From: Klenkia sp. PcliD-1-E
GTDB taxonomy: Bacteria > Actinomycetota > Actinomycetes > Mycobacteriales > Geodermatophilaceae
Assembly: GCF_024124375.1 (NCBI RefSeq)
Contig: NZ_JAMXRZ010000033.1
Span: 1-36,514 of the forward strand
DNA: 36,514 nucleotides
Direction of reading: 5' to 3'
Part shown: piece after piece, positions 5,477 through 17,036 of the stretch
Layout: every line of letters starts with the position of its first letter
Position numbering within the stretch: the first letter of the stretch is position 1
Position numbers and translations under genes: made by a program
The notes under the pieces: model-generated
Told to the model about the DNA's origin: nothing
What the model saw: only the letters and a program-made list of their open reading frames with translations
Databases searched by the model: none

Positions 5477-6133
5477 ATGCCCACGCCCGGCGCCTCCGCG
5501 CCCTCCCGCGGCCCCGCCCGGGGCACCGGCCTGCTCGGCCTGGTCGTGGAGAACCCCGCCGGCATCCCGGGGCTGCGCCTGCAGGGCCGGCCGCTGCTGG
5601 GCCACGGGGTCGACACCCTCGGCGCGGTGGCGACGCTGCAGGTCCGGGTGCTGGGCCGGGGCACCGCCGGGGCGCTCGGCCTGCACCCCGGGGAGCACTG
5701 GCGGTCGCTGGCCACCGAGGGCCTGGTGCTGCACGACGCGCTGTGCCCGCTCCTGCCGGCGTCGGCGGTCCGGGAGGCGGTGCAGCTGCTGGCCGCGGCC
5801 GGCCCCCGGGGGGTGGTGGTCGGCGTCCGGCCGGTCACCGACACGGTCAAGGAGGTCGTCGACGGCGCCGTGGTGGGCACCGTCGACCGGGACGCGCTCA
5901 GCGCACTGGCCTCCCCCGTCGCGGTGGGCGCCGGACTGCTCGACGCGCTGGCGGCGCGGTTGCCGACCGCCGGCGGGCTGGCCGACCTGACCGCGGTGCT
6001 CGAGGCGCTGGACGGCCTGGGCACGGTGGTGCCCTTCGAGGTGCCCTCGGCCGGGCGGCGGCTCACCGACGCCGACGACGTCGTCCTGATGGAGTGCCTG
6101 CACGGGCTGCGCGGCCGGCTCCGGGAACGCTGA
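5477..6133 (+). CDS. Degenerate IspD-like protein, probable pseudoenzyme
   Basis: A 218-residue protein that keeps the scaffold of 2-C-methyl-D-erythritol 4-phosphate cytidylyltransferase (IspD) but lacks its catalytic parts. Recognisable pieces are [12 protein letters not shown] (37-48), LHDALCPLL (85-93, where IspD has HDAARPL), PVTDTVKEV (119-127, an intact IspD signature), [11 protein letters not shown] (134-144), and a C-terminal stretch ending [13 protein letters not shown], like IspD's nucleotide-loop helix. The glycine-rich CTP loop with its Arg and Lys is gone ([11 protein letters not shown] in its place), the Arg of DAAR is lost, and TPQxF is replaced. The frame is intact with normal codon use, so it looks selected rather than decayed. 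A more conventional IspD/TarI-type gene lies only 0.3 kb away on the other strand. Binding or regulatory function is possible but unproven. Confidence 0.75.
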
Positions 6134-6136
6134 GCC

Positions 6137-6448
6137 TCAGCGGCCGCGGATGAGCGTGCCGAGCTCGGCGAGCAGCTTGCCGGGCTGGCGCAGCAGCGCC
6201 CCGGGCAGCTCGCGGGCGAAGCGCAGCGGGTCGCGGCGGGCACGGCGGGCCATCCGCACCGGCTTGCTGGTCACCCGGTGCTCGAGGTCGTGCAGGTAGC
6301 CGGTCAGCATCGAGCGGGGCACGACCTCCACGACGTGGCCGCAGGCGGTGCAGGTGGTGGTGGCCAGCAGCCGGCCCACGTGCCGCAGCTCGTGCTCCAC
6401 GGTGCGCCCGCAGGCGGTGCAGGTCAGCTCGGCGTACTCCTGCTCCAC
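6137..6448 (-). CDS. Small zinc-ribbon protein
   Basis: A protein of 103 residues with two CxxC knuckles (CTAC near residues 10-13 and CTAC near 33-36), spaced as in a rubredoxin-like zinc ribbon. A basic, helical C-terminal half follows (about 55-103, many Arg, ending LIRGR). It begins at GTG one base after the stop of the IspD-type gene, so it is the last gene of the PTS/SAF/IspD gene string. The next gene is convergent with a 3-nt gap. I recognise no named family. The ribbon plus basic tail fits a nucleic-acid- or protein-binding accessory role, which is inference only. Confidence 0.7.
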
Positions 6449-6449
6449 G

Positions 6450-7202
6450 TCAGCTCCCCCCTGCCGCTCCGGGTCCCAGCCGGCGGACGTCGAACGAGGA
6501 CCGCGCGAGCAGCGCCTCGGCGAGGAACAGGTCCTCGGCGTATGTGATCTTGATGTTGGTCGAGCTGCCGGGCACGTTGCAGATGCGCACCCCGGGGGCG
6601 AACCGCTCGATGCTCGCGGCGGTGTCCGAGCCCTCGAAGCCGGCGTCCGCGGCGGCCCGGTAGGCCGCCACCAGCTCGCGGGCGGTGAACCCCTGCGGGG
6701 TCTGCACGCCGACGGCCTCCCCGGCGCGGACGGCGAGCCCGTCGCGGTGCAGCAGGCCCGGCTGTCGGCGGCCGGGGACCGCCCCGCCGTGCTGGCGGGC
6801 GGCCGCGGCGACGTCGCGGAACAGGCCCGGACCGCTCAGCGGGCGGGCGGCGTCGTGGATGAGCACCACGTCCACCTCCCCCCGCTCGATCGACGGCAGC
6901 AGCTCCTGCACCGCTGCCCACTCCGAGGCGTGCCGGCTGGCTCCCCCGACGACGACGCGGACGTCGCGGCCGGCCGCCTCGCGGGCCAGCACTGTGTGCG
7001 CGGCCTCGACCTCGTCGGCCCGCACGACCAGCACCACGGGCCCGATGCCGGGGTCGTGCGCGGTGGCGTCCAGGGTCCAGACGAACACCCGCCGGCCGGC
7101 CAGCGGCAGGAACACCTTGTTGGTGCGGTGCCCCGTCCGCGAACCGGTCCCCGCCGCGAGCAGCACGAGGGCTGCCCGCGGCGGGGACGGGTCACGCGTC
7201 AC
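6450..7202 (-). CDS. ispD: IspD/TarI-type cytidylyltransferase
   Basis: Predicted to join CTP to a sugar-alcohol phosphate: 2-C-methyl-D-erythritol 4-phosphate in the MEP isoprenoid pathway, or ribitol 5-phosphate in TarI relatives. The 250-residue protein has the CTP loop AAGTGSRTG plus NKVFLPL (16-34, catalytic Arg and Lys kept), GGASRHASEW (87-95), HDAARPL (116-122), VGVQTPQGF (164-172), and the C-terminal DTAASIER with NIKIT.AEDLFLAEALL (216-231). The usual PVxDTxK substrate motif is absent, replaced by PGRRQPGLLHRDG (143-155). It follows the SAF dehydrogenase by 22 nt and precedes the zinc ribbon by 1 nt, so it belongs to the PTS gene string rather than sitting between carD and ispF as usual. 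It may still be the only IspD of the genome; the specificity is open. Confidence 0.8.
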   Translation of the reverse strand: MTRDPSPPRAALVLLAAGTGSRTGHRTNKVFLPLAGRRVFVWTLDATAHDPGIGPVVLVVRADEVEAAHTVLAREAAGRDVRVVVGGASRHASEWAAVQELLPSIERGEVDVVLIHDAARPLSGPGLFRDVAAAARQHGGAVPGRRQPGLLHRDGLAVRAGEAVGVQTPQGFTARELVAAYRAAADAGFEGSDTAASIERFAPGVRICNVPGSSTNIKITYAEDLFLAEALLARSSFDVRRLGPGAAGGS

Positions 7203-7224
7203 CCGGCCAGCGTAGGGCCCGGGC

Positions 7225-8556
7225 TCAGGCGGGGACGCCGCCCAGCGCGGCCACCAGGTCGGCCTCGGACGGCGCGGTGCCGGCCGGGGTGGCGTCCTGC
7301 AGCTTGCGCAGCGCGACGATGACCGAGTCCTGCGCGAGCTCGACGTCGTCGTAGGTGAGGTACTCCCCCGCCTTGACGTCCCGGACCAGGCGGGCGTGGG
7401 CGATGACGCCCAGCGGCACCCGGTTGCCGGCGGCGAAGTCCGCGGCGTCCTCGATCAAGCCGTGCACGTGCGCACCGCCCACGCCCTCGAGCACGGTGCC
7501 CGCGGCCAGGTCGCTCTTGGCGACCGCGCCGACCTCGGCGGTCCAGAACTCCGAGGTCAGGCTGGCACGGTTGTCCAGGACCATCTCGGCCACCGTGAGC
7601 GGGGCCTCGACGCTGGCCAGGTGGTAGGGCCGGTAGAGGGCGAAGTACGGGCCCGTGCCCATCTGCAGGTAGGACAGCTCGTGGTTGACGTAGGGGTCGT
7701 CGGTGCGGACGACGACGAACACGCCGGGCGCCACCGGGCCGGTGCAGTAGTCCACGACGCCGGCCTTCTCCAGCACGCCGCCGTCCTCGACGAGGGCGAA
7801 GGTGTCCTGCAGGGTCGGGACGGTCGACGCCGGGCCGTGCATGCCGCGGGTGGAGACGCCCAGGCCCGTGGTGTTGGCCAGCGCGGCCATCTCGATCATG
7901 GCCTTGGAGCCGTCCACGAAGCTGCACAGCATCTTCGGGTTCATGCCCTTGCGCTGCGCCTCCTCGGTGAGCGAAGCGGGCGTCGCCGACGGGTTCAGCG
8001 GGTTGTTCTTGCCCTTGCCCGCCATGACGACCTCCATGGAGAGGTCACGGGCGTAGTCGACGAGGATCTTGCACTCGACGGGCTCGTCGCCGCGGCAGAT
8101 CGAGTAGATCGCGCCGGAGGACTGGGCCAGGTCGTGCAGCAGCCGGCCGATGGTCACGTCGGACTCGACGTTCAGCGTGGCGATGTGCTTGCCGGCCAGC
8201 AGGCAGCGGACCGCGACCTGCGCGCCGATCTCGGGCACGCCGGTGGCCTCGACGACGACGTCGACGGGCAGGTCGGTGAGCATGGACAGGTCGTCGAGGG
8301 CGACGGCGCCCCCGCTCTCGACCACGCGGACGACCTCGTCGAGGTCGTGGCTGATGACCGGCTGCTGGCCGGTGCCGACCAGGGCCTCCGACGCGCGCTC
8401 GGCGACGACGTCGACGACGGCGGAGACGTGCACGCCGGTCATCCGGTGGGCCTGGGCGGCGAACCCGCGGCCCATCTGGCCGGCGCCGACCAGGGCGATG
8501 CGGACCGGACGGCCGCGCTGCGCCGCCAGGGCGGCGAGACGGGAGCTGTAGCTCAT
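7225..8556 (-). CDS. SAF-domain NAD(P)-dependent oxidoreductase, homoserine-dehydrogenase/DRL-like
   Basis: A protein of 443 residues. The N-terminal Rossmann domain has IALVGAGQMGRGFA (20-33), followed by a region like homoserine dehydrogenase NAD-binding domains (VVVEATGVPEIG). The central domain has the conserved stretches NVESDVTIG, SICRGDEPVECKILVDYAR, VMAGKGKNNP and a TYR-like LYRPYHL. A C-terminal SAF domain (about 350-430, VPLGVIAHARLVRDVKAGEYLTYDDVEL) completes it. This architecture matches the DXR-like (DRL) enzymes described from Brucella, which make 2-C-methyl-D-erythritol 4-phosphate from deoxyxylulose phosphate, but related proteins accompany glucitol-type PTS operons and may act on other sugar or alditol phosphates. 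ATG overlaps the EIIA stop by 4 nt. The IspD/TarI gene follows directly, making a DRL-IspD pairing. Domain calls are firm; the substrate is unknown. Confidence 0.8.
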   Translation of the reverse strand: MSYSSRLAALAAQRGRPVRIALVGAGQMGRGFAAQAHRMTGVHVSAVVDVVAERASEALVGTGQQPVISHDLDEVVRVVESGGAVALDDLSMLTDLPVDVVVEATGVPEIGAQVAVRCLLAGKHIATLNVESDVTIGRLLHDLAQSSGAIYSICRGDEPVECKILVDYARDLSMEVVMAGKGKNNPLNPSATPASLTEEAQRKGMNPKMLCSFVDGSKAMIEMAALANTTGLGVSTRGMHGPASTVPTLQDTFALVEDGGVLEKAGVVDYCTGPVAPGVFVVVRTDDPYVNHELSYLQMGTGPYFALYRPYHLASVEAPLTVAEMVLDNRASLTSEFWTAEVGAVAKSDLAAGTVLEGVGGAHVHGLIEDAADFAAGNRVPLGVIAHARLVRDVKAGEYLTYDDVELAQDSVIVALRKLQDATPAGTAPSEADLVAALGGVPA

Positions 8557-8981
8557 GAGGCGTCCTCGGGGGTGGCGACCGGACCGGCCGGTCGCAGGAT
8601 GCGGAAGGTGTCGCCCGGCTGCGGGAGCACGAGCGAGCCGACGGGGAGGTTGCAGTCACCGGGCATGTCCGCCTCGGTCGCACCGTTGGCCTTGAAGTCG
8701 ATGTGGCCGAGGTTGACCAGGTTGGCCTCGACCACCGCGCCGACGGCGAGCACGGGGATGCGGGTGCCCCCCAGCTCGACGACGTCGCCGGGGCGGGGGC
8801 CGGCGCTGGCCACCGTCGGTTCGTGCAGGGCGGAGAAGTCGTGCAGCTCGGCCGGGGAGTCGGCACCGAACAGGACCAGGATCCCGTGGTCGGAGACGAA
8901 CATCCCGACCTGCTCCCCGACCGCGGTGACGGTGGAGGAGTAGAGGACCTGCTCCTCCACCGTCACCTCGGGGGTGGTCAC
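8553..8981 (-). CDS. srlB: PTS glucitol/sorbitol-type EIIA component
   Basis: Cytoplasmic EIIA of the glucitol PTS family, which takes phosphate from HPr and passes it to EIIB. The 142-residue protein aligns over its whole length with E. coli SrlB: YSSTVTAVGE, ILVLFGADSPAELHDFSALHE, PVLAVGAVVEANLVNLGHIDFKANG, and a closing VGSLVLPQPGDTFRIL. His53 (in ALHEPT) falls where SrlB has its phosphorylated His43 region. The start is the GTG that overlaps the EIIB stop (GTGA). The frame extends further, but only as a shadow of EIIB. It overlaps the SAF dehydrogenase gene by 4 nt. General PTS proteins EI and HPr are not in the window. Confidence 0.9.
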   Translation of the reverse strand: MTTPEVTVEEQVLYSSTVTAVGEQVGMFVSDHGILVLFGADSPAELHDFSALHEPTVASAGPRPGDVVELGGTRIPVLAVGAVVEANLVNLGHIDFKANGATEADMPGDCNLPVGSLVLPQPGDTFRILRPAGPVATPEDAS

Positions 8982-9349
8982 TTCTCGACCACGTCCGCGA
9001 CGCCGACGCCGGAGACGAAGATGTCCTCCTTGATGAAGGAGGCCAGCGGGCCCGACGGCGACGTGGCGTGCACGTCGACGGTCATGACCTTCTTCATCGG
9101 GTAGACGCCGACGCGGGCGGTGCCGCCGCAGTCGATGACGGCCACGGCGATCTTGTCGAACGGGGCGGAGCTCTTGAAGCCGTCGAAGGCCTCGCCGCCG
9201 GTCAGCTCGGCGATCTTGGCAGCCACGGGGTGGATGCCCCCGCCGGTGACGCTGTAGATCAGCGGCTTGTCGGCGGTCGGGGTGATGGTGAGGGGGCCTC
9301 CCCATCCACCGCGGCCCTTGCTGATGGTGACGGACTTGTACTCGGGCAT
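8978..9349 (-). CDS. PTS glucitol/sorbitol-type EIIB component (separate gene)
   Basis: A 123-residue free-standing EIIB that matches the N-terminal third of E. coli SrlE: KGRGGWGGPL near the start, then ELTGGEAFDGFK, VAVIDCGGTARVG, and SGPLASFIKEDIFVSGV. Cys74 in IDCGGT is the expected phospho-acceptor, passing phosphate from EIIA to the incoming polyol. A second Cys a few residues on in E. coli (LRCGIYP) is Val here. In E. coli this domain is fused in front of the second membrane domain; here it is a separate gene placed after it, 37 nt downstream of EIIC2. ATG start. Confidence 0.9.
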   Translation of the reverse strand: MPEYKSVTISKGRGGWGGPLTITPTADKPLIYSVTGGGIHPVAAKIAELTGGEAFDGFKSSAPFDKIAVAVIDCGGTARVGVYPMKKVMTVDVHATSPSGPLASFIKEDIFVSGVGVADVVEK

Positions 9350-9386
9350 CTCGTGCTCCTCTTCGTTGCGGTGGTGCTCGGGTGGG

Positions 9387-9980
9387 TCAGTTGGACGAGT
9401 ACATCCCGAAGCTGGCGAAGTACGCGATCACGACCGCGATCGGCCCGGTGACCAGGCGGCTGAACAGCACCGCCGGGACGCCGGCCTCGACGGTCTCGGG
9501 CTCGGCCTCGCCCAGGGCCAGGCCGACGGGGATGAAGTCGCAGCCGACCTGCGGGTTGATGGCGAACAGCGCCGGCAGGGCGTACTGCGGCGGGATGTCC
9601 CCGGCGCCGATGCGGGTGCCGAGCAGGACGCCGACGACCTGCGCGATGACCGCACCGGGGCCGAGCACCGGCGACAGCACCGGGATGGCGCAGAAGATGC
9701 AGATCGCCAGCAGGCCGATCAGGTTCGACGCCAGGGGGGCGACGACGTTGGCCAGGGCGTTGCCCAGGCCGGTGTAGTTGACGATCCCGACGATGACCGA
9801 GACGAAGGCCATGAACGGGATGATGTTGCGGATGACGGTGTCGATGGTGTCGCGGCCGGCCTGGTAGAGGACGCCGACGACGCCACCGACGGCCTTGCCG
9901 ACCCGGACCAGGAGGCTGCTGGCCTTGCTCGCGACGCCGTTGCCGCTCTTCGCCGGCTTCTCGGTGGTTGCGGTGCTCAC
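9387..9980 (-). CDS. srlE: PTS glucitol/sorbitol-type EIIC, second half (EIIC2)
   Basis: A 197-residue membrane protein matching the C-terminal two thirds of E. coli SrlE: LYQAGRDTIDTVIRNIIPFMAFVS, LASNLIGLLAICIFCAIPVLSP, LGPGAVIAQVVGVLLGTRIG, IPPQYALPALFAINPQVGCDFIPVGLALGEA. About four hydrophobic segments are visible. With EIIC1 it forms the translocation channel that binds the polyol. It overlaps the EIIC1 gene by 4 nt. It lacks the N-terminal EIIB domain normally fused to it. The family is clear; the transported polyol cannot be read from sequence, since glucitol-type PTS permeases have diverse substrates. Confidence 0.9.
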   Translation of the reverse strand: MSTATTEKPAKSGNGVASKASSLLVRVGKAVGGVVGVLYQAGRDTIDTVIRNIIPFMAFVSVIVGIVNYTGLGNALANVVAPLASNLIGLLAICIFCAIPVLSPVLGPGAVIAQVVGVLLGTRIGAGDIPPQYALPALFAINPQVGCDFIPVGLALGEAEPETVEAGVPAVLFSRLVTGPIAVVIAYFASFGMYSSN

Positions 9981-10582
9981 GCCAGGGCTCCCTCGGTGCG
10001 GGTGTTGCGGGCCAGGAGACGCGCGGTGATGAGCTCGGTGACCACACCGCGGATGAGGATGACGACCATGCCGACCAGCAGGAAGCGGACGGCGAGGTCA
10101 CCCAGGCCGAGGCCCAGGGTGGTGATGCCGGCGGCGATGCCGTAGTAGACGAACAGCTCACCGGGGTTGGCGTGCGGGAACAGGCCGAGGATCGGGTGCA
10201 CGAAGCTCACCGAGGAGTCGTAGAAGGCGGGCTTGTACTTCTCCGGGAGGAACCGGCCCATCGTGTAGCACATGGGGTTGGTCAGGAAGAAGACCGACAG
10301 GACCGGCAGCACCAGGTAGCGGACCGGGTACCACTGGATGCCGGGGCGGGCGGCGAGCTCGCCGAAGCGCTCGATGCGCTCGACGCCGATCGCCCTGACC
10401 AGGGCGTTGACGGCGGTCAGCAGGACGATGAGCAGCGGGATGATCCCGGTGAGCAGGCCGACGAAGTTCGTCGCGCCCGCCTGGAAGAGGCCGATGAACC
10501 ACTCGGCGGCGTGGGCGAGGACACCGAAGAAGCCGGTGGGGTCCTGTGCCTGCGAGGTGTCCGTGGCTGCCAGTACTGACAT
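9977..10582 (-). CDS. srlA: PTS glucitol/sorbitol-type EIIC, first half (EIIC1)
   Basis: A 201-residue membrane protein matching E. coli SrlA: AEWFIGLFQAGATNFVGLLTGIIPLLI, IERFGELAARPGI, FFLTNPMCYTMGRFLPEKYKP, FPHANPGELFVYYGIAAG, and a final hydrophobic hairpin VRFLLVGMVVILIRG. Together with the next gene it makes the polyol channel. ATG is preceded by a good ribosome-binding site (AGGAGGGA). The 132-nt gap up to gutM is G-rich on the plus strand and shows no obvious gene. It is the largest gap in this otherwise overlapping gene string, so an internal promoter or processing site is possible. Confidence 0.9.
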   Translation of the reverse strand: MSVLAATDTSQAQDPTGFFGVLAHAAEWFIGLFQAGATNFVGLLTGIIPLLIVLLTAVNALVRAIGVERIERFGELAARPGIQWYPVRYLVLPVLSVFFLTNPMCYTMGRFLPEKYKPAFYDSSVSFVHPILGLFPHANPGELFVYYGIAAGITTLGLGLGDLAVRFLLVGMVVILIRGVVTELITARLLARNTRTEGALA

Positions 10583-10714
10583 GCGTGCGTCCCTCCTAGG
10601 GATGCGTGGCAGGGGTGGTGGGGGCGGGTGGGCACGGCGGGGAGACCGTTCCCGTGGTGCGGTGGGTCGGTCGGGCGGTGGTGCGGTGGTCGTGCGGGGT
10701 GGGACCCCGGCGGG

Positions 10715-11158
10715 TCACGCCGGGCTGGACACCCCCGCGGGGGTGGAGGCCGTCGTCCCGGTGGTGCTGGTGGCGCCGGGACGGCCGGCCAGGGCGGCGC
10801 GGAGCATCTCCGCGGCCTGTCGAGCGGCTTCCCGCTCGGGCTTGGTGAGGCCCTCGACGGGCCGGTCGCCGGCGACCACCGCCAGCCGGACGCCGACCAG
10901 GGCGTCCAGCGGGGTGGGCCGGGCGAAGGTGGTGAACCCGCGGAGGGTGAAGGCGCCGGTGATGCGCTTGTCGGCCACCGCGATCGCGACGAACGCGCGA
11001 CCCCCGCGGTAGCGGCGCCCGCCGGCGCCGACGGCGGTGGCGCCCAGGGGCCGCAGGCGGCGCAGCTCCCGGGCCCAGGCGGTGGTCTGCTTGCTGGTCA
11101 GCCACAGCTGCAGGACGGTCCCCAGGACGACGGGGACCAGCAGGATCGCCCAGCTCAT
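10715..11158 (-). CDS. gutM: GutM-type glucitol operon accessory regulator
   Basis: A protein of 147 residues beginning with a hydrophobic segment (AILLVPVVLGTVLQLWLTS, about 3-22). A compact domain typical of the glucitol operon activator GutM/SrlM follows: LGATAVGAGGRRYRGGRAFVAIAVADKRITGAFTLRGFTTFARP. The tail is Thr/Ser/Ala/Gly-rich. In E. coli GutM activates the glucitol operon; how the membrane segment contributes is unclear. The start ATG overlaps the regulator stop (ATGA). Its presence supports the glucitol-PTS identity of the whole operon. Family assignment is good; activator versus other role is inference. Confidence 0.82.
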   Translation of the reverse strand: MSWAILLVPVVLGTVLQLWLTSKQTTAWARELRRLRPLGATAVGAGGRRYRGGRAFVAIAVADKRITGAFTLRGFTTFARPTPLDALVGVRLAVVAGDRPVEGLTKPEREAARQAAEMLRAALAGRPGATSTTGTTASTPAGVSSPA

Positions 11159-12150
11159 CGCAGTGCCTCGCTCTCGTCGGTGTCGGACGTGCGGTCGGTG
11201 TCGCGGGCCAGTGCCAGGACGGCGCGGGCCAGGCTCTCGTCGCACACCAGGACGTCGACCAGGCGCCCGCGCAGGGCACCCAGGACGCCGGCGGCCTTGA
11301 CCCGGCCGCAGGCGACGCCGACGACGGTGGGGATGGCGGCGAGGTCGGAGAGGGTCACGGCGAGCACCCGCTCGTGCACCGCGCCCAGGACGGGGTTGCC
11401 GTCCGCGTCGAAGTAGCGGGCGGCGATGTCGCCGACCGGGGCGGCCTTGCGCAGCTGCGAGGCCTCCTCGGCGTCGAGGGCGAGCGCGGAGAGGATGGCC
11501 GCCGACGACCCGTGGGCCGGGGTGCCGATGCCGACGAAGGCGATGTCGGCCCGCCGGGCCTCGGCCAGGGCCTGCTCGACGCTGGCCTCCTCGGCGAGGG
11601 CGTCGCGGGCGGCGGCGGTGGTCAGCGTCGCCGGGGCGTGCAGGTAGCGGTAGGTGGCGCCCAGCCGGGAGGCGAGCTCGCGGACCAGCTCGTGGCCGGA
11701 GACCTCGTTCTCCACGGCGGACAGCCCGCCGACGAGCTGGACCAGCTTGACCGCGTAGTCGTGCTCGGCGGTGGTGTGCCAGACCATCGACTGCAGGGCG
11801 CTCCCCCACGACAGCGCGACGACCATGCCGTCGTGCAGCTCGTCGAGCAGCAGCCGGCCGGCCTGGACGCCGACCTGCTGGTCGGCGTCGCCGGCGGCGG
11901 TGCGCTGGGCGACGCGGACGGCGCGCAGGCCGAAGCGGGTGCGCAGGGCCTCCTCGAGCTCGCGGTCGCGGCCGGCCGGGTCGTTCACCCGGATCTCGAC
12001 GACGCCCTGCTCGACGGCGGATGCGAGCATGCGGGAGACGTTGCTGCGGCTGGTGCCCAGCCGCTGGGCCACCTCGGCCTGCGACTGGTTCTCCAGGTAG
12101 TACAGCCGGGCCGCGGCCACCAGGAGCTCCAGATCTCGGGGAGCAGGCAT
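11155..12150 (-). CDS. SorC/DeoR-type sugar-responsive transcriptional regulator
   Basis: A 331-residue SorC-family regulator. The N-terminal helix-turn-helix (about 8-55) includes LYYLENQSQAEVAQRLGTSRSNVSRML, the standard SorC HTH. The large C-terminal sugar-phosphate-binding domain shows VVALSWGSALQSMV, VQLVGGLSA, VGIGTPAHGSS, GDIAARYFDADGNPV and a final VGVACGRVKAAGVLGALRGRLVDVLVCDE. The start ATG has an excellent ribosome-binding site (GGAGGTGA, 2 nt away from the ATG). The frame extends upstream but only into the operator region. It is the first gene of the PTS string, so it probably autoregulates. Matching TGCAC-containing sites upstream of it and of the dehydrogenase operon suggest it controls both. 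Confidence 0.88.
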   Translation of the reverse strand: MPAPRDLELLVAAARLYYLENQSQAEVAQRLGTSRSNVSRMLASAVEQGVVEIRVNDPAGRDRELEEALRTRFGLRAVRVAQRTAAGDADQQVGVQAGRLLLDELHDGMVVALSWGSALQSMVWHTTAEHDYAVKLVQLVGGLSAVENEVSGHELVRELASRLGATYRYLHAPATLTTAAARDALAEEASVEQALAEARRADIAFVGIGTPAHGSSAAILSALALDAEEASQLRKAAPVGDIAARYFDADGNPVLGAVHERVLAVTLSDLAAIPTVVGVACGRVKAAGVLGALRGRLVDVLVCDESLARAVLALARDTDRTSDTDESEALR

Positions 12151-12444: not shown

Positions 12445-13767
12445 TCAGGCCAGGTCGTCGGCCATGAGGGCGAGCAACCGGGCGCCGTCGGCGCCGTCGC
12501 CGACCCGGTGGTCGACGGTCAGGCCCGCGGTGACCACCAGCGCGGTGCCGATGCCGCCGGGGACGGCGACCGGGCGGCGGCTGATCGACCCCAGGGCGAG
12601 CACGCTGCCCTGCGGAGGGGTGATCAGGGCCTGGAACCGGTCGACGCCGAGGCCGCCCAGGTTGGACAGGCTGGCGTTGGCCACCGCCTGGTGCGCGGCG
12701 TCGACCTTGCCCGTGCGGGCTGCCCCCGCCACCGCGCGCAGGTCCTCGTCGAGCCTGCGCGGGTTCTGGCTCTCGGGTGCGGTGAAGGTCGGCACCATGA
12801 GCCCCTCGGGGGTGTCCACCGCCAGCGCGACGACCGGTCCGCCGGTGGGCACCGCGTTCTCGCCGTCCCAGCGGTCGAGCAGCCGCGGCACCTGCAGCAG
12901 CGCGCGGGCGTAGCTCTGCAGCAGCACCGTGGTCCAGGACAACCCGTCGCGGTGCCCGTCCGCGGTGTCGAGCACCAGGTCCCGCCAGACCGTGAACTGC
13001 GGGATGGCCGCACTCTCGGTCATCTTGCGGGCCACGGCCCGCCGGACCGCCGCGACCTTGGCGCTGACCTGCCCGGTGGCCGGGGCAGCTGGCGCCACCG
13101 GCGCCGGCGCGGGCACCGGTGCGGGGGCCGGCTCGGGCACCGGGGCCGACTGGGCCTGCGCTGCGGCCCGCTTGCGCTGCGGCGGGGTCAGCGGCTTGGC
13201 CGCGGCCGGGGCCTCGGCGGCGGGCACCTCCGCGGCCGGTTGCGCAGCGGCGTCGATGGCACCCTGCACGTCGGCGATGGACACCACGCCGCCGGGGCCG
13301 GTCGGGGTGATCGACCGCAGGTCGACACCGGCCTCGGACGCCATGGCCCGGGCCTTCGGGACCGCCGCGACCGGACCGGTCGACGCCGCCCCCGCGGTCG
13401 CCGGTGCGGGCGCGGGCGCCTGCTGCGGCTCGGGGGTGGGTGCGTCGGCGCCGTCGGAGCCCAGCTCGTCGCCGGCGGCGGCCGGCTCCGCGGGGTCACC
13501 GAAGTCGAGCAGGTCGGTGAAGGAGTCGCCGTCGGCCTCGATCCAGCCGATCGGCTCGCCGACGGGCACGATCCCCGACTCGTGGACGATCTCCACGAGG
13601 GTGCCGGTGGCCGGGCTCTCGACCTCCATGTCCACCTTGTCGGTGAGCACCTCGCAGATCACGTCGCCGGAGGCGATCTCGTCGCCGACGCCGATGGCCC
13701 AGTGCGACAGCTCGCCCTCGGTCATGGTCATCGACATCTTGGGCATGCGGACGGGCACACGCGCCAC
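12445..13767 (-). CDS. Dihydrolipoamide acyltransferase (E2) of a 2-oxoacid/acetoin dehydrogenase complex
   Basis: A 440-residue E2 core enzyme. It has a single N-terminal lipoyl domain (about 1-80) with the lipoylated Lys in LTDKVDMEV, then an Ala/Pro-rich linker and a peripheral subunit-binding domain (about 133-170, PKARAMASEAGVDLRSI.PTGPGG). After a second long Ala/Pro linker comes the catalytic domain (about 225-440), with DHRVGDG near the C-terminus as the HxxxDG acyltransferase signature. It passes the acyl group from lipoyl-lysine to CoA. It begins 3 nt after E1beta. No dihydrolipoamide dehydrogenase (E3) gene is in the window, so E3 must be shared. The substrate (pyruvate, acetoin or another 2-oxo compound) is not decided by sequence. 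Confidence 0.88.
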   Translation of the reverse strand: MARVPVRMPKMSMTMTEGELSHWAIGVGDEIASGDVICEVLTDKVDMEVESPATGTLVEIVHESGIVPVGEPIGWIEADGDSFTDLLDFGDPAEPAAAGDELGSDGADAPTPEPQQAPAPAPATAGAASTGPVAAVPKARAMASEAGVDLRSITPTGPGGVVSIADVQGAIDAAAQPAAEVPAAEAPAAAKPLTPPQRKRAAAQAQSAPVPEPAPAPVPAPAPVAPAAPATGQVSAKVAAVRRAVARKMTESAAIPQFTVWRDLVLDTADGHRDGLSWTTVLLQSYARALLQVPRLLDRWDGENAVPTGGPVVALAVDTPEGLMVPTFTAPESQNPRRLDEDLRAVAGAARTGKVDAAHQAVANASLSNLGGLGVDRFQALITPPQGSVLALGSISRRPVAVPGGIGTALVVTAGLTVDHRVGDGADGARLLALMADDLA

Positions 13768-13770
13768 GGC

Positions 13771-14802
13771 TCAGGCCTCCTGGGTGGCGAGCGCGCGGGC
13801 GGTGGTCACGACGTCGTCCAGCTGCGGGACCATCGCCGACTCCAGCGCCGGGGCGTAGGGCATGGGCGCGTCGAGCCCGCACAGCCGCTTGATCGGCGCC
13901 TCGAGGCTGTAGATCGCCGACGAGCCGGCGATCCGGGCGGCGATCTCGCCCATGTAGCCGACGTGCCCGGGGGCCTCCTGCACCAGCAGGACACGTCCGG
14001 TGCGGCGGACGGCGTCCAGGATGGGCGCCTCGTCCAGCGGGGTGAGGGTGACCGGGTCGACGACGGTGGCCTCGATGCCCTCGGCGGCCAGCCGCTCGGC
14101 GGCCTCCAGGCTGCGGCCCACCATCACGCCGGTGGCCACGATGGTCAGGTCGGCGCCCTGGCGGCGGACGACCGTCTTCCCCAGCGGCACGCGGTCCGCG
14201 CCGGCGGGGACGACGCCCTTGGTGCGGTAGAGCAGCTTGTGCTCGAGGAACACGACGGGGTTGGGGTCGTCGATGGCGGCCAGCAGCAGGCCCTTCACCT
14301 CGGACACGGTGCTGGGCATGACCACCTTGAGGCCGGGCACGTGGGCGAACCACGCCTCCAGGCTCTGCGAGTGCTGCGCCGCGGCGCCGGTGCCCGAGCC
14401 CAGCGGGGTGCGCAGCACCATGGGCACCGACACCGCCCCTCCGAGCATGAAGTGGATCTTGGCGGCCTGGTTGACGATCTGGTCCATCGCCTGGCAGGTG
14501 AAGTCGGAGAACTGGATCTCCACGATCGGCCGCATGCCGGCCAGCGCGGCACCGACGGCGGCCCCCACGATGCCGAGCTCGGAGATGGGGGTGTCGCGCA
14601 CCCGCTCCTTGCCGAACCGGTGCACCAGGTCACCGCTCACCCCGAAGGCCCCGCCGTAGACCCCGACGTCCTCGCCCAGCATGAAGACGCGGTCGTCGGC
14701 GGCCATGGCCTCGGCCAGGCCCTCGCGGATGGCCTCGGAGTAGGTCATCTCGCCGCGCGCGGCGGCGGTGCTCGCGGCTGCGTCCTGCGCGGTGGCGGTC
14801 AT
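13771..14802 (-). CDS. E1 component beta subunit, pyruvate/acetoin dehydrogenase type
   Basis: A 343-residue transketolase-like subunit with the standard features: [64 protein letters not shown], and [27 protein letters not shown]. The C-terminal transketolase domain has [32 protein letters not shown]. With E1alpha it forms the thiamine-diphosphate enzyme that decarboxylates or cleaves the substrate and acylates lipoyl-E2. It overlaps E1alpha by 4 nt. Similarity is to both the acetoin dehydrogenase (AcoB) and PDH E1beta groups; I cannot choose between them by eye. Confidence 0.9.
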
Positions 14803-15878
14803 CGGGTCACGTCCTGGGTGTCGGCGGGGGCGAAGACGGCGTCGAGCAGGTCACCGGGGTCGGCGTCGACCCCGGAGTTGGCCTCGCGGACGGCGGCCTT
14901 GACGGCCTCGGTGGCCTCGTCGCGGGCGGCCGCGACGTCGTCCGCGGTGAGCAGACCGGACCCGGTCACCTTCGTCTCGAAGGCGACGATGGGGTCGCGC
15001 TCGCGCCACTCCGCGATCTCCTCGCGGGTGCGGTAGAGGTTCTTGTCGCTCTTGCTGTGGCCCTTCCAGCGGTAGGTCTCGGCCTCGATCAGGGTCGGGC
15101 CGCCGCCGCCCCGGGCGCGGTCGACGGCCTCGGCGGCCGCGGCGTGCACCGCGTCGAGGTCGTTGCCGTCGACGGTGACGCCGGGCATGCCGTAGGCCGC
15201 GGCGCGCTCGGCCACGTGCGGCACGGCCATCGAGAACTCGGTGGAGAAGCTCATGCCGTACTTGTTGTTCTCGCACACGAAGACCACCGGCAGGTCCCAG
15301 ATCGCGGCCAGGTTGAGGCCCTCGTGGAAGGCGCCCTCGTTGGTCGCGCCGTCGCCGAAGAAGCTCGCGACCACGCGGTCCTCGCCGCGCATCTTGTAGG
15401 CCAGCGCCGCACCGGCGGCGATCGGGATGCCGCCGCCGACGATGCCGTTGGCGCCGAGGTTGCCGGTGGCGACGTCGGCGATGTGCATCGAGCCGCCGCG
15501 GCCGCGGCAGTAGCCGCTCTCCTTGGCCAGCAGCTCGGCCATCATCCGGGTCAGGTCGGCTCCCTGCGCGATGCAGTGGCCGTGGCCCCGGTGGGTGCTG
15601 GTGATGGCGTCGCGCTCGCGGAGGGCCAGGCACACACCGGTCGCGCTGGCCTCCTGGCCGATCGACAGGTGCATGGTGCCGTGCATCAGGCCCCGGGCGA
15701 ACAGGTCGTCGACGGCCTCCTCGAAGCGGCGGATCTTCCACATGGTGGCCAGCGAGGTGCGGGCGGTCGTGGGGTCGCTGGACGGCGCGACGGGGCGGCC
15801 GTCCTGGACAGGCGGCTGGTGCGCGATGGCAGTGATGACGAACTCCCTGGTCTGCACATTTGTGACAACGGTTTGCAC
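14799..15878 (-). CDS. E1 component alpha subunit, acetoin/pyruvate dehydrogenase type
   Basis: Thiamine-diphosphate-dependent E1alpha, about 359 residues from the GTG at 15878. Family landmarks are [50 protein letters not shown], the ThDP/Mg motif [16 protein letters not shown]...CENNKYG, and the phosphorylation-loop region RWKGHSKSD. It resembles AcoA (acetoin dehydrogenase) slightly more than classical PDH. The start is uncertain. In-frame GTGs exist at 15926, 15911, 15878 and 15857, and none has a clear ribosome-binding site. 15878 is the first candidate downstream of the putative -10 box TACATT, and 15857 would fall inside the operator-like site. First gene of the E1alpha-E1beta-E2 operon. 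Confidence 0.88.
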
Positions 15879-15998: not shown

Positions 15999-16478
15999 TC
16001 AGGCCCGGGCGACGACCAGCGCGGTGGCGACGGCGGCCAGGCCCTCGCCGCGACCGGTGAGGCCGAGCCGGTCGGTGGTGGTCGCGGTCAGCCGGACGAC
16101 GGCACCCAGCGCCTCCTCGAGGACCTGCACGGCCTCGGCGCGCCGGCCGCTCAGCCGCGGGGTGTTCCCGACCAGCTGGACGGCGACGTTGCCGACGTCG
16201 AACCCGGCCGCGCGGACCAGCCGGGCGGTCTCGGCCAGCAGAGTGAGCCCCGAGGCGCCGGCGTACTCCGGGCGCGAGGTGCCGAACACCCCGCCGAGGT
16301 CGCCGACCCCCGAGGCGCTCAGCAGCGCGTCGCAGGCGGCGTGGGCCACGACGTCGCCGTCGGAATGCCCGGCCAGCCCGGCCTCGGCCCCGGGCCAGTG
16401 CAGGCCGGCCACCCACAGCGGGCGACCCGCCTCCAGGGCGTGCACGTCGACCCCGACCCCGACCAGCGGCAGCTGCAT
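15999..16478 (-). CDS. ispF: 2-C-methyl-D-erythritol 2,4-cyclodiphosphate synthase
   Basis: MEP-pathway enzyme that cyclises CDP-methylerythritol 2-phosphate, releasing CMP. The 159-residue protein is of normal length. Metal-site residues are in VGVDVHAL (Asp and His of DxH) and [24 protein letters not shown] corresponds to the family's NVDxTxxxxxPKL, and [14 protein letters not shown] is the C-terminal CMP-binding signature. In M. tuberculosis ispD lies between carD and ispF. Here ispF follows carD directly with a strong hairpin between them, and ispD is elsewhere. GAGACT 6 nt before the ATG is a possible leaderless -10 box. Confidence 0.95.
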
Positions 16479-16553: not shown

Positions 16554-17036
16554 TCAGCTGGCGAGGACCTCGTCGAGCAGCACCTCGGCCTTGTCCTCGT
16601 TGGTGCCCTCGGCGAGCGCGAGCTCGCTGACCAGGATCTGGCGGGCCTTGGACAGCATCCGCTTCTCCCCGGCCGACAGGCCGCGGTCCTTGTCACGGCG
16701 CCAGAGGTCGCGGACGACCTCGGCCACCTTGTTCACGTCACCGGAGGCCAGCTTCTCGAGGTTGGCCTTGTAGCGGCGCGACCAGTTGGTCGGCTCCTCG
16801 GTGTGCGGGGCACGCAGCACCTCGAAGACCTTGTTCAGGCCCTCCTGGCCGACGACGTCGCGGACACCCACGATCTCCGCGTTGTCGGCCGGGACCCGTA
16901 CGGTCAGGTCGCCCTGGGCGACCTTGAGCACGAGGTAGGCCTTCTCCTCACCCTTGATGGTCCGCTTCTCGATCGCCTCGATGAGCGCTGCGCCGTGGTG
17001 CGGGTAGACGACGGTCTCGCCGACAGTGAAGCCCAT
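16554..17036 (-). CDS. carD: CarD-type RNA polymerase-binding transcription regulator
   Basis: Essential in mycobacteria, where it binds the RNA polymerase beta subunit and stabilises open complexes, notably at rRNA promoters. The 160-residue protein has the N-terminal RNAP-interacting Tudor-like domain ([17 protein letters not shown] through [14 protein letters not shown], about 1-60). The helical DNA-binding domain has the conserved Trp in [10 protein letters not shown] and an [24 protein letters not shown] helix pair. The ATG has an AAAGGGG ribosome-binding site. A TATTCT -10-like hexamer lies about 33 nt upstream (17069-17074). The highly conserved sequence makes this one of the surest calls in the window. 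Confidence 0.97.

Follow-up and report, generated by a model that had tools for sequence, protein, structure and literature searches.

A 36,514-nucleotide stretch of Klenkia sp. PcliD-1-E (contig NZ_JAMXRZ010000033.1, hereafter the window; genome G000) carries a block of minus-strand genes in which a SorC-family regulator, GutM and a glucitol-type phosphotransferase system (PTS) are joined to a DRL-type oxidoreductase (P0007), a relative of the type II 1-deoxyxylulose-5-phosphate reductoisomerases (DXR-II), and to the E1-alpha, E1-beta and E2 genes of a thiamine-dependent dehydrogenase complex. The module formed by PTS, DRL and E1/E2 is present in full in the window and is conserved far beyond it. 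We regard it as fairly probable that this module serves to degrade 2-C-methyl-D-erythritol, or else a closely related branched tetritol, on the grounds that the DRL-PTS-E1 set is conserved, that operon DRLs are close to the DRL of Brucella, that the linked E1-alpha subunits share distinctive active-site residues and that DRL and E1-alpha are gained together within the genus.

In the proposed pathway the PTS would import and phosphorylate 2-C-methylerythritol, giving 2-C-methylerythritol 4-phosphate (MEP), and the DRL would run the DXR reaction backwards (MEP + NADP+ -> 1-deoxyxylulose 5-phosphate (DXP) + NADPH). The interconversion of DXP and MEP by DXR-II relatives is published; the direction and the activity of P0007 itself are predicted. 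DXP is an acetoin-like ketol, CH3-CO-CHOH-R, which the E1/E2 complex would cleave between C2 and C3 with thiamine diphosphate, passing the acetyl unit to CoA (DXP + CoA + NAD+ -> acetyl-CoA + glyceraldehyde 3-phosphate), as linkage, chemistry and active-site residues suggest. SorC and GutM would exert control. MEP is also the point from which isoprenoid synthesis branches off, by way of the housekeeping IspD encoded in the same locus. Methylerythritol is favoured as the polyol because the verified relatives of the DRL act on DXP and MEP and because the block is often found among ispD, ispF and cysS.

The recurrence of the same block across phyla argues against a chance association. Three sets of DRL loci were compared: a phylum set of 20 loci from 19 genomes, picked from the 63 of 396 phylum genomes positive for DRL at E 1e-40; a named set, the best 80 of 584 confirmed DRL stretches and thus skewed to close relatives, which comes to 76 loci without four duplicates of the phylum set (L146, L149, L152, L178); and 13 plasmid loci hand-picked from 88 records. 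Neighbours were located within 10 kb of the DRL by tblastn with a fixed query set, to which genes unlike the queries are invisible, and many contigs are short; 42 named loci (40 without Klenkia) have full flanks, defined as 7.5 kb or more to each side of the DRL. Among these 40, PTS genes occur in 35 and PTS together with E1-alpha and E1-beta in 31, whereas PTS and E1 are each found in 0 of 14 DRL-free loci of relatives from the same order, which are centred on IspD or IspF rather than chosen at random and two of which are short (L091, 5.7 kb; L094, 11.8 kb). PTS genes are near the DRL in 14 of 20 phylum, 57 of 76 named and 6 of 13 plasmid loci, and both E1 genes in 16, 47 and 7 of these, respectively. 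The module is thereby encountered in Actinomycetota, Chloroflexota, Bacillota, Spirochaetota and Alphaproteobacteria. Such a widely conserved PTS-DRL association is consistent with the suggestion of the original prediction that a PTS delivers an alditol phosphate to the DRL-like enzyme, for example in the breakdown of 2-C-methylerythritol.

Around a constant core the importer is exchanged. Rhizobium, Nitratireductor, Pseudoroseomonas and Terrarubrum have a PTS accompanied by an enzyme I of its own; in S. meliloti an ABC importer is paired with a kinase of the PfkB type (the same set is detected by tblastn in S. fredii NGR234), and Priestia combines an MFS transporter with an FGGY kinase. The module is adjoined in S. 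meliloti by genes for lipoyl synthase and dihydrolipoyl dehydrogenase and in Rhizobium by thiamine synthesis genes, which would provide for the cofactors of E1/E2/E3 chemistry. CarD, IspF or CysS lies within 10 kb of the DRL in 13 of the 42 full-flank named loci.

Individual lineages show further variation of the locus. Two Klenkia genomes contain a galactitol-type PTS and a second SorC, 73-76% like the first, between E1-alpha and ispF (L085:14872-17833 and L088:15141-18162), and Rhizobium (L186) and Pseudoroseomonas (L197) likewise have additional PTS genes, of unchecked type, close to the module; such sets might import a related sugar, e.g. 1-deoxyxylulose. Between SorC and E2 of G400 (L088:7600-11200), open reading frames resembling, by eye, phosphoenolpyruvate (PEP) synthase and its regulatory protein are found, an enzyme that would help to supply PEP for the PTS when carbon enters as acetyl-CoA. 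In three loci from Bacillota and Chloroflexota (L153, L156, L159) the E1/E2 genes on either side of PTS and DRL differ in order and orientation, an indication of reshuffling or transfer.

P0007 aligns over its full length with the DRL chain 3UPL (41.8% identity over 416 aligned positions), the Brucella abortus enzyme, with which the residue numbers of PMC3847144 agree. Together with the DRL_cat match this bears out the prediction that the SAF-domain protein is DRL-like. As in DXR-II and Brucella DRL, Gly121, His250 and Arg320 are kept in P0007 (alignment of 115 sequences). The operon DRLs of Rhizobium and S. fredii NGR234, both located inside SorC-DRL-E1a-E1b-E2 operons, are even closer to the Brucella enzyme, with identities of 74.6% and 70.3%, respectively. 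As described in PMC3847144, the DXR-II family comprises 53 sequences and has S. fredii NGR234 and Listeria among its members; for 11 of the sequences, complementation of a DXR mutant was demonstrated. In a tree rooted by hand on L053, L104 and L193, with no named DLO1 or DLO2 sequences included, P0007 groups with the operon DRLs and Brucella DRL, and the latter is sister to the operon DRLs of Rhizobium, Sinorhizobium, Aminobacter and Nitratireductor plus a non-operon DRL of Phyllobacterium. P0007 differs from the Brucella enzyme in residues 229 and 351, in residing in a PTS/E1 operon of a genome that also has DXR-I, and in the opposite direction proposed for its reaction.

Within Klenkia, DRL and the operon E1-alpha are gained or lost together. 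Both are present, at 94-100% identity, in five genomes (G000, G396, G397, G399 and G400), although in G399 they are split between two contigs, each of which breaks off within the block; both are missing from G398, G401 and G402, which contain only a 35-36% identical E1-alpha paralogue. Of the named organisms represented in the best 80 of 584 DRL stretches, Klenkia brasiliensis (DRL 97% identical) and K. taihuensis (96%) are the closest relatives.

By sequence, E1-alpha and E1-beta are of the pyruvate dehydrogenase (PDH)/acetoin dehydrogenase kind. With acetoin dehydrogenase (AcoABC) and E1-alpha/beta-type PDH the complex shares the E1-alpha, E1-beta, E2 gene order, the motif STHRGHGH, which is found in the linked E1-alpha subunits and in 7 of 12 comparison sequences including three acetoin operons, and, for the former, the ketol-cleaving chemistry proposed here. 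It differs in its linkage to a DRL and polyol import and in the E1-alpha motifs HGT, GYC and GHSKSD, which are rare among the comparison sequences. A Lys or Arg at position 248 of the window's E1-alpha (P0012), next to the Ser of the active-site loop, is present in 75 of 75 linked E1-alpha sequences and in 1 of 12 comparison sequences; the corresponding counts are 75/75 and 1/12 for Tyr95 and 70/75 and 1/12 for Asn252. Just before the catalytic His, HGT in the linked sequences corresponds to GF in 10 of the 12, and GHSKSD takes the place of the GHFEGD loop of the three acetoin operons compared (L198, L200, L205). The comparison group consists of nine sequences from eight plasmid loci (hand-picked from 350 records), one human sequence and the second E1-alpha of L139 and L140. 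The last two were moved there after they had been seen to lack the motif, and counting them as linked gives 75/77 for residue 248, a motif that was itself spotted by eye before the comparison sequences were fetched. Among the 75, two Klenkia loci are counted twice (L085/L106, L087/L105) and in L102 the E1-alpha and the DRL come from separate contigs; L136, L163 and L185 (<300 aa) and four duplicates were left out.

Residue 248 aligns with Met265 of human E1-alpha, beside Ser264. According to PMC6168537, Phe61, His63, Tyr89, Met200 and His263 are among the residues of the catalytic site and the main access channel lies near Ser264. A phosphorylated ketol such as DXP would presumably require a site that is larger and more polar and that has gained a positive charge. 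In the E1-alpha tree, for which the root was chosen by hand, L204a falls inside the linked clade without the motif (support 0.87), and the sole comparison sequence with Lys, from a Clostridioides difficile plasmid (L199), also groups with the linked sequences. The bond to be cut in DXP is made by DXS when it joins a two-carbon unit held on thiamine to glyceraldehyde 3-phosphate. Since single changes in the PDH E1 of E. coli are moreover described to result in DXP formation in vivo (PMC3424233), the proposed cleavage is chemically plausible. The C. difficile plasmid (L199:4998-9927) is an observation of its own: SorC, E1-alpha with GHSKSD, E1-beta, E2 and Lpd are found together, and no DRL is annotated in the 11 kb covered.

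Several observations weigh against a methylerythritol catabolic pathway. Its weakest link is the identity of the polyol, methylerythritol being a putative PTS substrate, and the DXR equilibrium favours MEP. P0007 has Ala at position 229, where Thr is reportedly invariant in DXR-II, and Thr instead of Val at 351; PMC3847144 describes Thr229 as absolutely conserved and Val351 as conserved in most members. The substrate may thus be shifted or the synthetic direction given up, and because of these two residues P0007 is classed, on its sequence, as a DRL-type enzyme and kept out of the proven DXR-II. Position 229 is Thr in 97 and Ala in 12 of the 115 aligned sequences, the 12 including two Klenkia loci twice. 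The Ala229 sequences do not form one clade, a Thr229 group being nested among them with weak support, and of the genomes tested DXR-I is present in 7 of 7 with Ala229 and in 19 of 44 others (Fisher p 0.0098, phylogeny ignored). On the side of the complex, PDH models are the best matches of E1-alpha and E2, though below their cut-offs, and E1-beta passes a PDH subfamily cut-off, so that an ordinary 2-oxoacid dehydrogenase is still conceivable. E1 is missing from 9 of the 42 full-flank named loci; Listeria innocua has SorC-DRL-GutM-IIC-IIB-IIA without E1, the Enterococcus raffinosus locus lacks it as well, and Ligilactobacillus salivarius has fructose-6-phosphate aldolase (Fsa) and transketolase instead of E1/E2. 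Loci of this kind would need another sink for DXP. Neither PTS nor E1 is found near the DRL of the distant relatives L053, L054, L104, L193 and L194, nor in Phyllobacterium (L195), which belongs to the Brucella clade.

Part of this evidence would be accommodated if the DRL oxidised another PTS-delivered polyol phosphate (of a tetritol, a pentitol or another branched alditol) and E1/E2 acted on the resulting methyl ketol or 2-oxoacid. We consider this unlikely, yet it is the alternative to be taken most seriously. Glucitol-type PTS may accept several polyols, the Thr229Ala and Val351Thr exchanges would be explained, and the aldolase and transketolase of Ligilactobacillus could serve for pentitols too. 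In favour of the methylerythritol reading, the aldolase also fits a 1-deoxyketose, as fructose-6-phosphate aldolase is described to join hydroxyacetone and glycolaldehyde to 1-deoxyxylulose (PMC8791446). Four DLO relatives whose tests are described in PMC3847144 all failed to complement the DXR mutant, which is likewise in line with another polyol. Contrary to this, operon DRLs are 70-75% identical to the Brucella reference enzyme, the operon lies among MEP-pathway genes in several lineages, and a DXR-I match is missing from all eight tested genomes in which a DRL is accompanied by ispD without PTS or E1.

These eight genomes (L109, L114, L119, L120, L121, L132, L148, L151) also lend support to a view in which the DRL is merely a second DXR for isoprenoids, with the sugar genes adjacent by accident. 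A search for DXR-I covered 50 of the 80 named genomes and gave a match in 25 and none in the other 25; it was found in 0 of these eight, where PTS and E1 were not seen near the DRL. All eight have IspD, and in them the DRL is probably the isoprenoid DXR, making MEP. In the tree, DRLs of this kind are scattered within the clade of actinobacterial operon DRLs, in part adjacent to the branch of the window. Those of L151 and L114 are 52-56% identical to P0007. The DXR-I test does not extend to a ninth such locus (L147), nor to two loci of the phylum set (L036, L041); several of the genomes are metagenome-assembled genomes (MAGs), and in L114, L119, L120, L132 and L148 a contig ends close to the DRL, so that a PTS may lie beyond it. 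DXR-I is likewise absent from 17 of the 42 other genomes tested (present in 25), so that its absence is not special to the DRL-ispD genomes, and some of these organisms may use mevalonate (MVA); this, too, tells against the pathway proposed here. As an account of the module in general, an accidental neighbourhood is most improbable, given a PTS-DRL-E1 set conserved across phyla and a window genome that has DXR-I. In Finegoldia magna, PMC3847144 describes an active DXR-II although all other MEP and MVA genes are missing, a situation that is difficult to account for if the enzyme serves isoprenoid synthesis only.

The arrangement of the block in the window is given in Table 1. All nine genes from SorC to the zinc ribbon are on the minus strand in the order and place predicted, and the spacing of mostly 1-4 nt that had been noted applies to five of the eight junctions: four are 4-nt overlaps (SorC/GutM, EIIC/EIIC2, EIIB/EIIA and EIIA/DRL) and IspD and the zinc ribbon are separated by 1 nt, with gaps of 22 nt between DRL and IspD, 37 nt between EIIC2 and EIIB and 132 nt between GutM and EIIC. 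These nine genes are nevertheless not the complete set, since the E1-alpha, E1-beta and E2 genes lie about 300 nt upstream of SorC, on the same strand. The E1/E2 genes are tightly packed, E1-beta and E1-alpha overlapping by 4 nt, and the end of E2 is 294 nt from SorC. The start of E1-alpha is uncertain, with in-frame GTG codons between positions 15857 and 15926. All four EII components are above their Pfam thresholds, and a PTS enzyme I (PF05524) is encoded in the genome. EIIC, EIIB/C, EIIA and GutM belong to the same Pfam families as those of the E. coli glucitol/sorbitol operon (srlAEB-gutM), from which the block differs in the splitting of EIIBC into two genes, the SorC-family regulator and a DRL in place of sorbitol-6-phosphate dehydrogenase. 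Plain sorbitol use was set aside, since no sorbitol-6-phosphate dehydrogenase is found among the block genes, to which this search was confined.

Table 1. Genes of the block and its neighbours in the window (positions in nucleotides)
Feature	Position	Strand	Evidence
E1-alpha of thiamine-dependent dehydrogenase complex (P0012; proposed DXP dehydrogenase)	14799..15857	-	TIGR03182, 358.6 bits, below cut-off of 393.85
E1-beta of the same complex	13771..14802	-	NF006667, 348.6 bits, above cut-off of 321
E2, lipoyl acyltransferase of the E1-alpha/beta complex	12445..13767	-	best model below cut-off
SorC-family regulator	11155..12150	-	Pfam Sugar-bind, E 1.8e-63; ATG start at 12150
GutM	10715..11158	-	Pfam GutM, E 6.3e-9
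Glucitol-type PTS EIIC	9977..10582	-	EII-GUT, E 4.8e-73; above both NCBIfam cut-offs
EIIC2, second membrane part of glucitol-type EII (C-terminal half of EIIBC)	9387..9980	-	EIIBC-GUT_C, E 8.6e-48
EIIB	8978..9349	-	EIIBC-GUT_N, E 3.9e-52
EIIA	8553..8981	-	PTSIIA_gutA, E 4.8e-22; GTG start at 8981
DRL-type (DXR-II-like) NAD(P)-dependent oxidoreductase (P0007)	7225..8556	-	DRL_cat, E 4.8e-64, with NAD_binding_3 and SAF; 3upl, E 5.6e-97
IspD-type cytidylyltransferase with variant loop (P0008)	6450..7202	-	Pfam IspD (PF01128), E 3e-38
Small zinc-ribbon protein	6137..6448	-	matches all below curated Pfam cut-offs
Degenerate IspD-like protein (P0010), start uncertain; neighbour outside the operon	5477..6133	+	PF01128, E 5.8e-9, residues 91-195 only
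IspF, housekeeping MEP-pathway neighbour	15999..16478	-	
CarD, locus marker	16554..17036	-	named by eye

CysS and RlmB, named by eye, follow past the degenerate IspD-like gene on the side of the block opposite to IspF and CarD. Comparison with block-free genomes shows that the block sits inside a locus of MEP genes, between ispF and an ispD of the P0008 type. In G398, G401 and G402 (L097-L099), which belong to the same genus, the locus reads carD-ispD-ispF-cysS-rlmB. In G411, from another genus of the family, it reads carD-ispF-ispD-degenerate ispD-cysS-rlmB with no block at this locus; its ispD is of the P0008 type (73-74% identical), and a 37% identical DRL paralogue and a 48% identical E1-alpha are encoded elsewhere in that genome.

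P0008 is above the PF01128 threshold and has the nucleotide-binding, HDAARP and NIK motifs. It differs from canonical IspD in missing the DTxK loop and the Arg before LxAVQTPQ, which presumably have a role in the canonical enzyme, and at 140.7 bits it remains below the TIGR00453 equivalog cut-off of 181.3. The original prediction had put IspD forward as the second enzyme for the PTS product, possibly in a CDP-alditol route with a TarI-like IspD making a CDP-polyol. The variant loop speaks for such a route, which we nonetheless hold to be very doubtful. In the 99.9% complete genome G000, PF01128 matches are limited to P0008 and one open reading frame resembling GlmU by eye, in a profile search that did not list the degenerate P0010; one IspF match (within the window), DXR-I elsewhere and one DRL complete this inventory. 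Each of the four other Klenkia carriers has one P0008 match, the operon copy. That search is less sensitive, because a canonical IspD may escape detection with P0008 as query (as did the G398 copy, visible by tblastn of the locus), so that "only IspD" is a softer statement for these genomes than for G000. The score of P0008 with the ribitol-phosphate model is 68.9 bits, less than half of that with the IspD model, and the same atypical clade without the DTxK loop is found beside ispF or carD in loci of several families with neither DRL nor PTS (L089, L090, L093, L095, L096). Most simply, P0008 would be the housekeeping IspD at an ispF-cysS locus rather than an accessory enzyme of the operon, and the more likely second enzyme is the E1/E2 complex, which lies outside the nine genes of the original prediction. 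An IspD dedicated to the operon was accordingly rejected as a candidate, P0008 being the only IspD detected in G000 and G411 having a gene of the same type without the block.

Proximity of IspD to the DRL is not confined to this genome, as it is found in 24 of the 40 full-flank named loci outside Klenkia. It is seen in none of the tabulated alphaproteobacterial, Bacillota and Spirochaetota loci, and 21 of 45 PTS+E1 loci of the named set have no IspD nearby; in other genomes the operon-linked IspD is the sole match in some and one of two or more in others. The proximity is partly explained by the frequent position of the operon among MEP-pathway genes. It would also fit a salvage route, in which methylerythritol enters as MEP to feed IspD and isoprenoid synthesis, the DRL keeps DXP and MEP in balance, and the E1/E2 genes encode a pyruvate dehydrogenase that has nothing to do with the route. 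IspD directly behind the DRL in the window and the ispF/cysS/carD neighbourhoods support this view, which is nevertheless improbable, somewhat more so than a different polyol: a DRL is unnecessary once MEP has been made, E1-alpha and E1-beta accompany the DRL more often than IspD does (16 versus 7 of 20 phylum, 47 versus 39 of 76 named and 7 versus 0 of 13 plasmid loci), and the E1-alpha residues described above are absent from the PDH sequences compared.

The degenerate IspD-like protein has no visible N-terminal nucleotide-binding motif and its gene is divergent to cysS; it is also present in the other Klenkia carriers, in G411 and in a Nocardioidaceae MAG (L157), and is possibly a pseudo-enzyme partner of IspD. 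The zinc-ribbon family lies at most 300 nt from IspD in 29 of 64 loci with IspD, and in some Bacillota (L159, L165, L167) zinc-ribbon genes neighbour the PTS-DRL module, with no Pfam cut-off passed among those scanned. With no family above threshold, the zinc ribbon was set aside as a clue to function.

The gene set looks undescribed but widespread. Among the top-ranked matches in open-licence PMC papers, no description was found of a DXP dehydrogenase, of a PTS operon containing DXR-II or of the catabolism of 2-C-methylerythritol, which is weak evidence of absence, and the terms "PTS" and "catabol" do not occur in the main text of PMC3847144. That paper poses as a question how DXR-II could evolve in strains already equipped with DXR-I, and a 2026 review states that there is no defining pattern of DXR-II distribution beyond overrepresentation among certain pathogens (PMC13001223).

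The scattered bacterial DXR-II would, in the catabolic reading preferred here, be mainly catabolic, with some lineages using theirs as the isoprenoid DXR. In its widest form this reading has a pathway extending from Actinomycetota to Rhizobia and Clostridia for 2-C-methylerythritol and perhaps for the methyltetrols that isoprene contributes to aerosols, and a DXR-II that was ancestrally catabolic and was recruited repeatedly as the isoprenoid DXR in lineages that had lost DXR-I; we give this an even chance. Plants and isoprene oxidation are sources of methylerythritol, for which the module, if the reading is true, would constitute a biological sink. A catabolic origin would then answer the puzzle of the redundant and scattered DXR-II genes, a substrate would be predicted for many genomes, and a family of "pyruvate dehydrogenases" would have to be re-annotated as DXP dehydrogenases. 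It would also open a way of feeding MEP-pathway engineering from outside the cell.

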